Shown: positions 5,563-41,020 of the stretch, one piece after another | Position numbering within the stretch: the first letter of the stretch is position 1 | How the letters are laid out: each line of letters begins with the position of its first letter | Assembly: GCF_001592435.1 (NCBI RefSeq) | Contig: NZ_CP014750.1 | Location: forward strand, 1,178,001 to 1,242,000 | DNA from: Thermococcus peptonophilus | GTDB taxonomy: Archaea; Methanobacteriota_B; Thermococci; Thermococcales; Thermococcaceae | Reading direction: 5' to 3' | DNA length: 64,000 nucleotides | Notes under the pieces: generated by a model | What the model was told of the DNA's origin: nothing | Database searches by the model: none | What the model saw: only the letters and a program-made list of their open reading frames with translations | Translations under genes and position numbers: made by a program

Positions 5563-6378
5563 TTGATAGAGATAACGTTCCTCGGGAGCGGAGGCGGGAG
5601 GTTCATTACCATAACCCAGTTCCGCTCCACGGGAGGATTCCACATATCTGCCAGCAGGAACATCTACGTTGACCCCGGGCCAGGGGCACTAGTCAGGAGC
5701 TGGCGCTACAAGCTCGACCCCAGAAAGCTCGACGCCATCTTCGTTTCCCACAGGCACGTCGACCACTGCAACGACCTTGAGGTCATGGTCGAGGCCATGA
5801 CGGGCGGAGCGCTGAAGAAGCGCGGCGTTTTGATAGCCTCAAAGAGCGTTGTCTACGGTGACGAGGAGCATACTCCCGCGATAAGCCAGTACCACATAAA
5901 CGTCCTTGAGAGCGTGCACATCCCAGAACCGGGAAGCAAAATTTCGATCGGAGACGAGGAGTTGCTGATAACACCGAGCAAGCACTCCGACCCGACAACA
6001 ATAGGCTTCAGGATGAGAACGAGCTTTGGTGATATCTCTTATATTCCCGATACAGCGTACTTCGATGACCTCATACGCTGGCACGATGGAGCGAGGGTTC
6101 TGATAGCGGCTATAACGAGACCCAGGGACATGGGAATTCCCTACCACATGAGCACAGACGACGCCGTTGAGATGCTCAAGAGCATGGAGAAGAAGCCGGA
6201 AGTCCTGGTAATGAGCCACATCGGGATGAAAATGCACTTCGCCAACCCCTACAAGGAGGCAAAGTACATCGAGAACGTCACTGGGGTCAAGACGTACGTT
6301 GCCAAGGAGGGCTTTAGAGTAACAGTCGATAAAAAAGAAATAGCGGTGAGAACTTTAAGGCCAGCTAGGTTCGTCTGA
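5563..6378 (+). CDS. Metallo-beta-lactamase-fold hydrolase
   Basis: GGAGGTG at 5551-5557 points to the TTG at 5563, giving 271 residues; the frame is open further upstream, but that part overlaps the divergent peptidase gene. Residues 62-68 read SHRHVDH, the HxHxDH zinc motif of the family, after the usual N-terminal IEITFLGSG strand. Later metal ligands are visible as PSKHSDP, IPDTAYF and MSHIGMKMHF. The order suggests an RNase Z/lactonase-type domain without CPSF additions. Substrate unknown. It is transcribed divergently from the M20 gene and overlaps the phosphohexomutase gene tail to tail by 14 bases. Confidence 0.8.
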   Translation: MIEITFLGSGGGRFITITQFRSTGGFHISASRNIYVDPGPGALVRSWRYKLDPRKLDAIFVSHRHVDHCNDLEVMVEAMTGGALKKRGVLIASKSVVYGDEEHTPAISQYHINVLESVHIPEPGSKISIGDEELLITPSKHSDPTTIGFRMRTSFGDISYIPDTAYFDDLIRWHDGARVLIAAITRPRDMGIPYHMSTDDAVEMLKSMEKKPEVLVMSHIGMKMHFANPYKEAKYIENVTGVKTYVAKEGFRVTVDKKEIAVRTLRPARFV

Positions 6379-31750: not shown

Positions 31751-32215
31751 TCACTCCCTCACAACAACGGGAAACTCCTCCCAGGGGAAGACGATCCACT
31801 TGTCCGTCCTGAAGACGTAGAAGTCCGGAACTACCTTCGTCCAGGGCTTCATGCTGAGGCAGGCGACCTTAACCTCGCTTGCCCCAGCTTTCTTCACTTC
31901 CTCGATGACAACTTCGAGGGTCTTTCCGGTGTCGCTGACGTCGTCCACAATAACGACCTTCTTTCCTTCAAGCGAGCCGTGGAGTGGGATGTTTATGACC
32001 GGCTTCTCCATTCTCTCATCTATGTCCTTGTAGAACTTGACGTCTATGACCTTCACTTCGAGGTCGCCGAGGATATGGCTGAGCCTCACAGCCGGGATAA
32101 GCCCGCCCCTCGCGACTCCAACGATCACATCCGGCATGAAGTTCTTCCTCAGCTCGTCCGCCAGAGCGAATATTGCCCTGTCAACCTGCCACCAGGTGAG
32201 GTAAACCTTGTCCAT
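31751..32215 (-). CDS. Purine phosphoribosyltransferase (xanthine-guanine/hypoxanthine type)
   Basis: The 154-residue protein has the PRPP-binding motif VVIVDDVSDTGKTLEVV and an N-terminal VGVARGGLIPAVRLS loop, both typical of the small xanthine-guanine class of type I phosphoribosyltransferases. It would salvage purine bases to nucleoside monophosphates. GGAGGTGTTGAC precedes the ATG. Base specificity cannot be read from the motifs. It marks the boundary between GC-rich housekeeping DNA and the AT-rich peptide cluster. Confidence 0.85.
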   Translation of the reverse strand: MDKVYLTWWQVDRAIFALADELRKNFMPDVIVGVARGGLIPAVRLSHILGDLEVKVIDVKFYKDIDERMEKPVINIPLHGSLEGKKVVIVDDVSDTGKTLEVVIEEVKKAGASEVKVACLSMKPWTKVVPDFYVFRTDKWIVFPWEEFPVVVRE

Positions 32216-32320
32216 GTCAACACCTCCGAATAGCGCGGGCTTTAACCCTTTGGCCTTAAGGCTTTTGGCTGATGGATAGAAGTAAAAGTCTCGGGCTTAA
32301 AAAGTCTCCGTTGGCAGAAA

Positions 32321-32333
32321 GATGTTAAACATC
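32321..32333. promoter_or_regulatory. Inverted repeat upstream of the RiPP promoter
   Basis: GATGTT-A-AACATC is a perfect 6-bp palindrome with a one-base centre, about 36 bases upstream of the BRE of the peptide operon. Candidate operator; no cognate regulator gene is visible in the cluster. Confidence 0.35.
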
Positions 32334-32368
32334 ATATTACAAACAACATTTTGCAAACTATGAGTTTA

Positions 32369-32382
32369 GGAAAAATTTATAT
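32369..32382 (+). promoter_or_regulatory. Promoter of the RiPP operon
   Basis: GGAAAAA (BRE) is followed by TTTATAT (TATA). Transcription about 25 bases downstream, near 32405, leaves a leader of roughly 25 nt that carries the precursor's ribosome-binding site GGAGGTGAT (32418-32426). Confidence 0.55.
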
Positions 32383-32429
32383 TCGTATTATATAACTTTC
32401 CAACGCAAACATAACATGGAGGTGATATC

Positions 32430-32561
32430 TTGGAGTTGGGACTTCTTGCTACTAAGATTAGTCAGGTAGGGTTGGAGCCAGGCCACGGACCTGATGGGAT
32501 TCCAATTCCAATATGCATGGCCTGTTGCTTGTTGGGTGGTGGTGGGGTTAATCCCTATTGA
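32430..32561 (+). CDS. Putative RiPP precursor peptide, 43 residues, Cys- and Gly-rich end
   Basis: TTG at 32430 follows GGAGGTGAT by three bases, a nine-base match to the anti-Shine-Dalgarno end of 16S rRNA and the strongest such site I noticed in the window. The frame is closed by a TAA at 32412-32414, so no ATG or GTG start exists upstream. The leader-like first 28 residues contain LLATKISQVGLEPGHGPDG and an IPIPI stretch; the last 15 are CMACCLLGGGGVNPY, with C29, C32, C33 and four Gly. A short peptide directly before a radical SAM gene with a PqqD-like domain is the classic layout of a modified-peptide (RiPP) cluster. The reading frame is supported by sequence; modification is inferred. 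The same bases are open in a second frame belonging to the enzyme gene's upstream extension. Confidence 0.75.
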   Translation: MELGLLATKISQVGLEPGHGPDGIPIPICMACCLLGGGGVNPY

Positions 32562-32563
32562 CG

Positions 32564-32577
32564 TTTGTTTATTTTTT
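32564..32577 (+). terminator. T-rich tract between precursor and enzyme genes, possible attenuator
   Basis: TTTGTTTATTTTTT lies two bases after the precursor stop and before the enzyme's ribosome-binding site. Archaeal RNA polymerase terminates at such U-tracts, so partial termination could yield more precursor mRNA than enzyme mRNA. Confidence 0.4.
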
Positions 32578-32598
32578 AACTTAAGAGGGGGTATTGTG

Positions 32599-34047
32599 AT
32601 GAGTATAGAAACTTTGGAAAAAGTCTACCCGGTTCCTCGTGAGAGACTCATTATGAGAAGGGATAGCTATGGCGTCGTAGCCATGGTGTATCCATTTGGG
32701 GGCACCCTTAGAATATTGCACCCCTCTGAAGCTGTGATAATCGCGCTGTGCGATGGCACAAGAACGATTGGGGACATCATTGATATCGTTTCGAGGATAT
32801 TTAATATTGACCGCACACGCTCAAGGAACTACGTGGAGCATATATTTAACACGTATAACGAGTATTTCCAATTCTCGAACTTGCCTCTGGAAAGTACTGT
32901 CAGTTATGACCCAATGGACTTTGTATATTCGCCGAAAAGCTTTAAAAACTTCAGGCATTACTTGGAAAGTCCTCTTGGAATTACCTATGTATGTACTAAA
33001 GTGTGCCATCTGAGGTGTAAATACTGCTACGCAAATTCTGTACACATCTCAGACAGTATGAATAGTTCAATTGATAGTCCTCTATCTTTAGAAATCCTTG
33101 AGAAAATAGTTAGGGATTTCAAGGAGAATGGGATTAAATTTGCCCTGTTCTCTGGCGGTGAGCCTTTGTTGTTAAAGGATATTCATAAGAGAGTAGAACT
33201 GTTTACGAGAAATGATATTCGCGTTTTTATCTCAACTAAATACCCTGTAAGCAGGAAAAAGAGTGAACAGCTCAAGAAAGCGGGGATAAAGGAGATACAA
33301 GTTAGCTTGGACTCGTTTATTCCGGATATTGAAGATGAATTAGTCGGTGTGCCTGGGATGTTTTATAAACTAATTAGATCCATAGAGAACCTAATTGAAG
33401 CGGGAATAGAGGTATGGGTCAACACGGTGTTGACATCAAAGAATATTTACGAGTTCCCAAAATTTGTCAGGTTTCTGAATAAACTGGGAGTCAAACGGGT
33501 TACTCCCTCATTATACACGGTTCCTATAGGGTGGGCTTCCAGATATGCTTCGGAGTTGTTGCCCTCCTCAGAGCAGCTGTCCTGGCTATCCCGTGAGCTT
33601 AAACAAATTAATCCCACTCGAGAGGAGTCCATAAACGTAGATTATTTTACTCAGTCTAATGGTATCTCTCTTGATAAGCAGGTTCAGACTATGAGTTCAT
33701 TCCAGAGGCAGCTCTGTGGTGGGGGACGGGTGGGGCTGGTAATGTTGCCCGACGGTAGAGTGACTGTGTGTGAGAGGTTAGCCAATTTGGACTGGCTGAT
33801 TGTGGGAGATTTAAAAAAAGAAAGTGTGCGTGATGTCTGGGAGTCAGAGAGAGTAAGGTGGTTTAGGAACCTGCCTCGGGAACTATATCGGGGCACTCCC
33901 TGCTATTCATGCCAGTATTTTGAAACAATATGCCAGCCTCGGGGGATATGCCTGTTGTCAAGTTATGCCTTAAATGGCAGATTTTTTGGTCCGGATTCAA
34001 TGTGTCCATTTGTCCGGAGGGGGAGGAAGAATGAAAGTAAAGGTTGA
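32599..34047 (+). CDS. Peptide-modifying radical SAM/SPASM enzyme with N-terminal PqqD-like domain
   Basis: GAGGGGGT at 32585-32592 sets the ATG at 32599; the frame is open to 32494, but that stretch overlaps the precursor gene in another frame. The 482-residue protein has a PqqD-like (RiPP recognition) N-terminus, about residues 15-90, with LHPSEAVIIALCDGTRTIGDII. The radical SAM domain has C136, C140 and C143 (CHLRCKYC) and SGGEP (185-189). The C-terminal SPASM domain has seven Cys: C373, C391 (in GRVTVC), C435, C438, C445, C451 and C469, as expected for two auxiliary 4Fe-4S clusters. Enzymes of this build make thioether or C-C links in peptides. The substrate is very likely the peptide encoded just upstream. 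Base composition is AT-rich, unlike both flanks. Confidence 0.88.
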   Translation: MSIETLEKVYPVPRERLIMRRDSYGVVAMVYPFGGTLRILHPSEAVIIALCDGTRTIGDIIDIVSRIFNIDRTRSRNYVEHIFNTYNEYFQFSNLPLESTVSYDPMDFVYSPKSFKNFRHYLESPLGITYVCTKVCHLRCKYCYANSVHISDSMNSSIDSPLSLEILEKIVRDFKENGIKFALFSGGEPLLLKDIHKRVELFTRNDIRVFISTKYPVSRKKSEQLKKAGIKEIQVSLDSFIPDIEDELVGVPGMFYKLIRSIENLIEAGIEVWVNTVLTSKNIYEFPKFVRFLNKLGVKRVTPSLYTVPIGWASRYASELLPSSEQLSWLSRELKQINPTREESINVDYFTQSNGISLDKQVQTMSSFQRQLCGGGRVGLVMLPDGRVTVCERLANLDWLIVGDLKKESVRDVWESERVRWFRNLPRELYRGTPCYSCQYFETICQPRGICLLSSYALNGRFFGPDSMCPFVRRGRKNESKG

Positions 34048-34873
34048 TAACTTAGTCAAGGTTTATGGTGATGTTATCGCTCTAAAGAACGTTACTTTAA
34101 GCTTTAAAGCTGGAAATATTTATGTGTTGCTTGGTCCAAACGGAGCAGGTAAGACTACACTCGTTAAAATAATTTCCGGTCTTATACCTCCAACCTCTGG
34201 TGATGTTTATGTCAATGGTTTAAGTGTTACTGAAAACCCCAGTTCGGCCAGGAACATGCTTCGCTTTGTACCCCAGGAGCCTGCCCTTGACTGGTTGCTC
34301 TCTGTGTACGACAATCTATATTACTATGCATGGCTTCTAGGTTTGCCTAAAGCGGAAAGGAAAAGGGCTGTTGAGAGGGTACTAAAAAAATTTAATTTAA
34401 GTGATTATTCAAACTTTGCTATCAACCAGCTCTCCGGGGGCCTTCAAAGGCGGGTTCAGATTGCTAGAGCGTTCCTAGATGAAACTAGGCCTCTTCTTAT
34501 ACTTGATGAGCCTACTATTGGAGTTGACCCTGTGGGCAAACTTCAGATTTGGGAACTCATAAAAGATGAGACCTCTTCTGGGGATATCCTCACTATAGTA
34601 TGTACAAATGACTTGAGTGAGGCTGAGTTTTTGGGGGATATAATTGTTTTGTTGAACAAGAAAGTTATTAGAGTTCTTAAAAAAGAGGATATTGCCCTTG
34701 AAGACTCTGTTGAGATTGTTACCTCCTCAGAGTCCATAATCGTTAACAGGAGGGAACTCAACAAAACCCTTCTTTCCCTCATTTATGATGGGATTGAGAT
34801 AAGGTCAGTATCACCAAAGAGACCCTCTCTGATGGATGTGTTTAGAGAGTATTTTGGAGGTGGTTCCGAATGA
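34031..34873 (+). CDS. ABC transporter ATPase of the RiPP cluster
   Basis: The ATG at 34031 (MKVKVDNLVKVYGD) follows GGGAGGAAGA and overlaps the enzyme gene by 17 bases. The 280-residue ATPase has Walker A GPNGAGKTT (35-43), Q-loop Q82, signature LSGGLQ (134-139) and Walker B LLILDEP (155-161). At the H-loop position there is N193 (CTNDLSEAE) where His is usual. No peptidase domain is fused, so leader removal must be done by another protein. It pairs with the downstream ABC-2 permease to export the peptide or confer self-protection. Confidence 0.88.
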   Translation: MKVKVDNLVKVYGDVIALKNVTLSFKAGNIYVLLGPNGAGKTTLVKIISGLIPPTSGDVYVNGLSVTENPSSARNMLRFVPQEPALDWLLSVYDNLYYYAWLLGLPKAERKRAVERVLKKFNLSDYSNFAINQLSGGLQRRVQIARAFLDETRPLLILDEPTIGVDPVGKLQIWELIKDETSSGDILTIVCTNDLSEAEFLGDIIVLLNKKVIRVLKKEDIALEDSVEIVTSSESIIVNRRELNKTLLSLIYDGIEIRSVSPKRPSLMDVFREYFGGGSE

Positions 34874-35622
34874 TGAACTTGAGGATCCTACCTCTTGTGT
34901 GGAGAGAGCTTAAGGTTAACACCACGACTCATTTTGTTGTAGGCAAGATTATAGTTCCCACTGCATATCTGTTACTTTTTTCTCTTGGGTTTAGTTATGC
35001 ATTTAATGGATTCTATTTAAATGGTGAACATGTGCCGTATACATCCTTTTTCTTGCCAGGACTGATTGCGCTCCAAGTTTTCCTGAACTACAGCTATGCC
35101 TTGAGCATGGTGAGATGGGATAGAATAACCAACTTAATCACAATAATAAAGATTGCGGGAGTTGGGATGGGAGAATACCTGCTGTCCAAGGTGTTTTCAA
35201 CGGTTTTATATTCGATGTTGCAGGGAGTGTACCTGATTCTACTCGGGGCAGTGTTTTTTGGACGTTTTCCCACTTTCCAGGGTTTTGTGTACATGCTTGT
35301 GGGAATATTTGTAGGTTGTGTTTTCTGGGTTGCTCTTGGAGTGGTGCTTGGGATAGTCATAACAAATGATGTTAAAAGGGACATCATTACGACCTTGGTG
35401 GGTTTGCCAGCGTCTTTTGCCAGTTCTGTATTCTATCCCTTGAATATGATACACTCGAGTATTTTCAAAGCTATTGTTTTGCTGAATCCCTTGACGTATT
35501 TGGCTCAGTTCCTAAGGAACGCATATCTGTTTGGAACATTTGATACCACATCCTTTTTAATATTGCTTGTTGCCTCCGGGTTGTTATCTCTCCTAAGTTA
35601 TTACACAGCCAGAAATGTGTAG
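34870..35622 (+). CDS. ABC-2 type permease of the RiPP cluster
   Basis: The 250-residue membrane protein has six hydrophobic segments and the ABC-2 pattern near its end (GLPASFASSVFYPLN then NPLTYLAQFLRNAYL), as in NodJ/DrrB-type exporters. Its ATG overlaps the ATPase stop (ATGA), so the two are made together. In peptide clusters such transporters export the product or protect the producer. It is the last gene of the operon; the reductase gene converges 58 bases further on. Confidence 0.85.
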   Translation: MMNLRILPLVWRELKVNTTTHFVVGKIIVPTAYLLLFSLGFSYAFNGFYLNGEHVPYTSFFLPGLIALQVFLNYSYALSMVRWDRITNLITIIKIAGVGMGEYLLSKVFSTVLYSMLQGVYLILLGAVFFGRFPTFQGFVYMLVGIFVGCVFWVALGVVLGIVITNDVKRDIITTLVGLPASFASSVFYPLNMIHSSIFKAIVLLNPLTYLAQFLRNAYLFGTFDTTSFLILLVASGLLSLLSYYTARNV

Positions 35623-35680
35623 TTTAACCTGGAGTGTCACTCCTTGTAAATTTTATCATGAAGAATAAAATGGGAATTCC

Positions 35681-41020
<5,340 letters not shown>

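Follow-up and report, generated by a model that had tools for sequence, protein, structure and literature searches.

A stretch of 64,000 nucleotides from Thermococcus peptonophilus (the window) contains a short, easily overlooked gene that almost certainly encodes a translated precursor peptide for the radical SAM/SPASM enzyme next to it. We take the hidden gene to be real and to represent a new peptide family because the set of four genes to which it belongs, together with the C..CCL..GGG tail of the peptide, recurs in a second archaeal phylum. The product is very probably a radical-SAM RiPP that is exported from the cell. Judged by its sequence, the peptide belongs to a new family of precursors that has its own archaeal cassette, inside the known kind of radical-SAM RiPPs.

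A hidden gene upstream of the maturase

The first-pass annotation had proposed a gene of 43 codons at this position, and its coordinates, frame, TTG start, length and stop are all as claimed (Table 1). The peptide reads MELGLLATKISQVGLEPGHGPDGIPIPICMACCLLGGGGVNPY up to its stop codon, and TTG 32430 is the earliest start codon within an open frame of 48 codons. The strong ribosome-binding site reported upstream is likewise present; GGAGGTGAT presumably pairs with the 3' end of archaeal 16S rRNA over nine bases. This sequence occurs once in the 64 kb, where 0.69 copies are expected by chance, and alone it therefore proves little. Similarly, a weak Shine-Dalgarno sequence followed by a start codon and an ORF of at least 30 codons was found in 1.5% of 20,000 Markov-shuffled 268-nt leaders, so the 43-codon ORF by itself is suggestive and undecisive. 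Codon bias gives a slight edge to the peptide frame (0.19 bits per codon, against −0.07 and 0.14 in the other frames), but 43 codons are too few for this to be informative. The upstream element AAAAATTTATATTC is a predicted promoter, from which transcription would be expected to start at about 32405. The peptide has no family match in Pfam or NCBIfam; with no family model and a TTG start, the gene is likely to be missed by annotation.

Table 1. Features of the cassette and its flanks, with positions in the window.
Feature	Position	Strand	Basis or remark
Phosphoribosyltransferase gene	31751-32215	-	Cassette flank
Low-GC cassette, about 3.35 kb	32331..35680		Between phosphoribosyltransferase and ribonucleotide reductase genes; GC drop, breaks in homology to relatives
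BRE/TATA-like archaeal promoter element AAAAATTTATATTC (predicted)	32371..32384	+	Sequence inspection
Shine-Dalgarno sequence GGAGGTGAT of peptide gene	32418..32426	+	Ends three bases before TTG 32430
Precursor peptide gene	32430..32561	+	TTG start, 43 aa; homologous peptides ahead of the maturase orthologues of two MAGs
Putative leader (residues 1 to about 28) and core (about 29-43)	32430..32561		Parts of the 43-aa peptide
Conserved core CxxCCLxxGGGxxxx-stop	32514..32561	+	C-terminus of window peptide, CMACCLLGGGGVNPY, then stop
Shine-Dalgarno sequence GAGGGGGT of maturase gene	32585..32592	+	Inspection; places start at ATG 32599, not ATG 32494
Radical SAM/SPASM peptide maturase	32599..34047	+	482 aa; Pfam Radical_SAM 3.8e-23, SPASM 3.2e-9; orthologue alignment
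ABC transporter ATP-binding protein, DrrA-like	34031..34873	+	280 aa; profile matches; 42% identical to that of related cassette
ABC-2 type permease	34870..35622	+	250 aa; PF01061 1.7e-13; overlaps ATPase gene
Ribonucleotide reductase gene	35681-40951	-	Cassette flank, 1756 aa

Related cassettes in a second archaeal phylum

A search of 396 archaeal genomes with the maturase returned G246 as the top match (E 1.3e-68, residues 11-474) and G280 next. Both are MAGs named 'Thermoproteota archaeon' (isolates Aegir_M25_B147 and INS_M12_B43), from a small phylum that is distinct from that of the window and has 29 genomes in the genome set. The window and the loci in G246 (L075) and G280 (L076) share one gene order, in which small ORFs are followed by the maturase, the ABC ATPase and the permease, with identities between the window and the related cassette of about 31% for the maturase, 42% for the ABC ATPase and 32% for the permease. 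Two tandem small ORFs, MAVLSAFFGLGAEDLRASVAVASCSACCLAGGGGTLIA and MASVLGEWRDVSAADIGDGVTAWPCAFCCLLAGGGTLIT, precede the maturase in each MAG. They terminate in CSACCLAGGGGTLIA and CAFCCLLAGGGTLIT, compared with CMACCLLGGGGVNPY in the window, each followed directly by a stop codon. These orthologous cassettes, with upstream peptides that keep three Cys and three Gly, bear out the proposal that the window ORF is a precursor; a short precursor next to a maturase, in a pair kept across divergent genomes, is the general arrangement of radical SAM RiPPs. None of the peptides tested matched an NCBIfam family.

Comparison of synonymous with nonsynonymous change, which had been suggested as a check on the peptide frame, gave 3:0 for peptide 2 and 1:1 for peptide 1, counts from the G246/G280 pair only that are too small to carry much weight. 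An N-terminal extension of peptide 2, which is unlikely, gave 0:2 in the same pair. A third orthologue of the maturase, in G409, is 34% identical to that of G246; it lies at a contig edge and has no ABC genes downstream. Scans of genome contigs and viral contigs with the maturase revealed no close relative, and a viral alignment scan gave one weak relative. A frameshift near residue 375 breaks the G280 maturase gene (L076:4303-5711) in two, reflecting either an assembly error or a pseudogene; that of G246 is intact.

Conservation of the core motif

The motif CxxCCLxxGGGxxxx-stop aligns without gaps in both archaeal phyla. The window has one copy and the related locus two, where shuffled sequences lead us to expect none. 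Because the MAG ORFs were found around the maturase and not by the motif, we regard the shared motif as independent evidence, and it is this conservation, rather than the ORF or the Shine-Dalgarno sequence alone, that gives the ORF its significance. None of 20,000 shuffles outscored any of the three alignments of related peptides to that of the window, although for two of them the margin was small.

A DNA-pattern scan for the motif across the genomes of 84,980 species yielded 58 stretches. Besides the two cassette MAGs, one of the 58 was convincing: a Bipolaricaulota MAG (L108) encodes MGELVEKLRELANVVGISATEIVTNRGGNWDPPVEQCQQCCLYSGGGFVEM, with an ATG start behind GGAGGTG, on a contig that ends 30 bp past the peptide, before any maturase. 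That genome yielded no maturase orthologue at 1e-20, and a search of 100 genomes of its phylum gave one match (2.7e-37), outside the cassette enzyme group. Since the motif led us to this peptide, the presence of the motif there does not count as independent evidence, unlike the peptide's strong ribosome-binding site and its leader. Most of the 58 genome matches, and all four further matches in viral sequences, look like chance, in that they have no maturase nearby, contain internal stops, lack a proper start or lie within other genes; a Syntrophomonadaceae match was dropped because it overlaps another gene. A peptide HMM run over the 396 archaea scored strongly only for the window, G246 and G280, and matches with E-values of 7e-4 to 0.02 in other archaea were rejected, those inspected having no maturase.

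In all four peptide types, C29, C32, C33, L34 and G37-G39 are invariant, as is the distance from the first Cys to the stop codon. The first-pass annotation had asked whether the Cys positions are fixed, and they are; the three invariant Cys would provide the donors expected in a sactipeptide core. Three positions past C33 the four types have G, G, A or S, and their terminal residue is not conserved (Y, A, T, M).

Acquisition of the cassette

GC content falls from approximately 53% to approximately 42% between about 32250 and 35650, and homology to relatives ends at approximately 32216-32334 and resumes at about 35681. In the loci of relatives the flanking genes occur without the cassette; in most of those examined they are separated by 15-20 bp, and in two, including the closest (G011), by 142 bp. 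No other carrier of the maturase or the cassette DNA was found among 61 genomes of the genus and 94 of the family Thermococcaceae, where the best enzymes are 28% identical and belong to other subfamilies. Because the relatives' flanks lack the 3.35-kb segment and its GC content drops, we conclude from composition and comparison that the cassette is horizontally acquired, at a site that takes other inserts too. Three relatives have other, unrelated inserts between the flanking genes.

The gap between the phosphoribosyltransferase and ribonucleotide reductase genes is insertion-prone among Thermococcus-type genomes. The inserts observed there (L067:950-2700, L070:6880-8600, L060:2750-3220) encode a small membrane protein, either by itself or together with a secreted-looking protein. 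Within the ribonucleotide reductase gene itself, stretches 37034-38178 and 38648-40031 are missing in several relatives, consistent with two inteins.

The maturase and its relatives

The radical SAM motif CX3CX2C corresponds to C136, C140 and C143. Alignment of three orthologues identifies seven SPASM-type Cys (CX12GX4C, CX2C and two more, the last being C469), giving the two auxiliary cluster sites of a sactipeptide-type SPASM domain. A PqqD/RRE-like N-terminus is tentatively suggested by weak Pfam PqqD matches in the window enzyme (0.017, residues 34-82) and in an orthologue (1.1e-4), which at 15.9 and 22.8 bits are both below the gathering score of 23.4. An AlphaFold model built from a two-sequence alignment had a pLDDT of 44, too low to support a fold search or a decision on the PqqD domain. 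Among the NCBIfam families listed, there is none whose cut-off the maturase reached; its PDB matches include SkfB (1.5e-7).

In a phylogenetic tree the window maturase groups with those of G246 and G409 (92/47; 91% of 200 bootstrap trees). The neighbouring enzymes, on long branches, are from a Paenibacillus peoriae plasmid and an archaeal MAG (G731). Each of the two is immediately preceded by short peptides rich in Cys, so this whole part of the tree seems to consist of maturases for Cys-containing precursors.

Some details of these and similar loci are worth recording. On the P. peoriae plasmid, two tandem Cys-rich precursor-like ORFs (L041:5448-5654 and 5691-5888) are missing from the record's gene table, and the radical SAM gene downstream of them is annotated as two pieces. 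In an archaeal MAG a radical SAM enzyme is preceded by a Cys-rich peptide resembling SCIFF (L167:3502-3744). In another archaeon the 39-aa peptide MNANRREWVAPKIMSGTPEPSKKCELCFSCYSKFGPVPT (L168:3663-3782) precedes a radical SAM/SPASM enzyme, and an ABC ATPase lies farther downstream.

Proposed product and alternative readings

We envisage that the leader would be bound by the putative PqqD-like domain of the maturase, and that a 5'-deoxyadenosyl radical generated at the CX3CX2C cluster would take hydrogen from acceptor residues, while Cys29, Cys32 and Cys33, handled via the SPASM auxiliary clusters, would be joined to them as thioethers. That the crosslinks are thioethers is probable; they possibly connect to the conserved glycines, whose alpha-carbons would be the most economical acceptors. 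Glycine has only alpha hydrogens, and a thioether to it would therefore be a sactionine. Rings could be nested, for example as C33-G37, C32-G38 and C29-G39, or there could be a streptosactin-like four-residue ring, C33-x-x-G36; the residues seen three positions past C33 (G, G, A or S), together with the invariant G37-G39, would be compatible with a small i+3 ring as well as with three nested ones. The ABC ATPase is a probable exporter or immunity component and, with the permease, would export the peptide or protect the producer. The cassette contains no dedicated peptidase, and leader removal would therefore fall to a host protease. The most likely role, as far as gene content can suggest one, is that of a narrow-spectrum archaeocin or a signal carried on an acquired cassette. 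A more elaborate picture is that of a new RiPP class of hyperthermophilic archaea in which CxxCC is nested onto the conserved Gly-Gly-Gly by three thioethers, one for each Cys/Gly pair, to give a compact heat-stable knot that acts as a signal or an archaeocin and has spread from one phylum to another; we consider it doubtful.

The enzyme might instead install a change other than a thioether, such as epimerisation, C-terminal decarboxylation or the C-C crosslinks of mycofactocin and PQQ, leaving the Cys to bind metal or form disulfides. The window maturase scores as well against MftC (5.4e-25) and PqqE (1.1e-24) as against sactipeptide enzymes, the best NCBIfam match of its orthologue is MftC (1.6e-29), and Tyr is the final residue of the window peptide, as it is in mycofactocin precursors. 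That last residue is unconserved, however, whereas the three Cys and three Gly are kept, and the related maturases serve Cys-rich peptides; we therefore regard a non-thioether modification as rather unlikely. The same Cys-rich precursors beside related enzymes weigh against the idea that the peptide works unmodified, as an antimicrobial or signal, while the radical SAM enzyme acts on something else. ABC exporters do serve unmodified peptides too, but the putative PqqD-like domain fused to the maturase, and a gene adjacency kept across phyla, make this improbable.

Least credible to us is that the operon has here only a leader, untranslated or regulatory, and that the enzyme is a 517-residue form starting at ATG 32494. 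The frame from 32494 is indeed open through into the enzyme, and the first-pass annotation was right that this 517-codon ORF overlaps the peptide gene in a different frame. Its 517-residue form is nevertheless not the likely enzyme, as the orthologues align from about ATG 32599, which has a ribosome-binding site of its own, and an amino-acid motif kept across phyla contradicts a purely regulatory leader.

Comparison with known systems

Streptosactin, a streptococcal sactipeptide of the GGG subfamily (GggB/StsB), is likewise made by a radical SAM/SPASM enzyme from a short Cys/Gly precursor. Its alpha-thioether rings, Cys31-Gly34 and Cys25-Ser28, have i+3 spacing (PMC8172795), to which C33-L-L-G36 of the window and C-L-Y-S of the Bipolaricaulota peptide are comparable. 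The earlier statement that the core is unlike known sactipeptide spacing is thus only partly upheld: the core does not follow the classical nested arrangement, but i+3 Cys-Gly and Cys-Ser crosslinks are known. Unlike streptosactin, the window has CxxCC rather than separated single Cys, is archaeal, carries a DrrA-like ABC pair and has no quorum-sensing neighbour that we could see; against the StsB model (NF045574, cut-off 625 bits) the window maturase scores 71 and its orthologue 94.

The closest maturases outside the cassette clade (L041, L167) have Cys-rich precursors directly upstream, as in the SCIFF-like ranthipeptides. Ranthipeptide precursors have many spaced Cys, however (SCIFF, six in about 45 residues), whereas the window peptide has only three, in CxxCC ahead of a Gly run. 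SkfB and AlbA, the enzymes of sporulation killing factor and subtilosin, have the domain order PqqD-like, radical SAM, SPASM that the window enzyme may share, but identity is low and the precursors are unrelated in sequence. MftC and PqqE are among the top-scoring RiPP maturase profiles for the window enzyme and its orthologue; both enzymes nevertheless fall far under the cut-offs (265 and 381 bits; MftC, 88 and 103 bits), and the cassette has neither an MftA- or PqqA-like precursor nor a separate MftB or PqqD partner gene.

Most known radical-SAM RiPPs are bacterial, and a literature search found no paper on a radical-SAM peptide of Thermococcales. The window provides a compact, defined cassette of four genes in a group for which genetic methods are available, and CxxCCLxxGGGxxxx-stop can be used as a search key for further cassettes.

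Three other Thermococcus-type genomes have a different short ORF, with a conserved VPLxSxxTxWxxWxxWGK core (L013:1204-1308; L014 and L015, reverse complement, about 1180-1343). The enzyme encoded directly downstream is a radical SAM/SPASM protein whose second-best NCBIfam match is WgkB (4.2e-50), and the ORF is a putative separate archaeal RiPP that resembles the streptococcal WGK motif.
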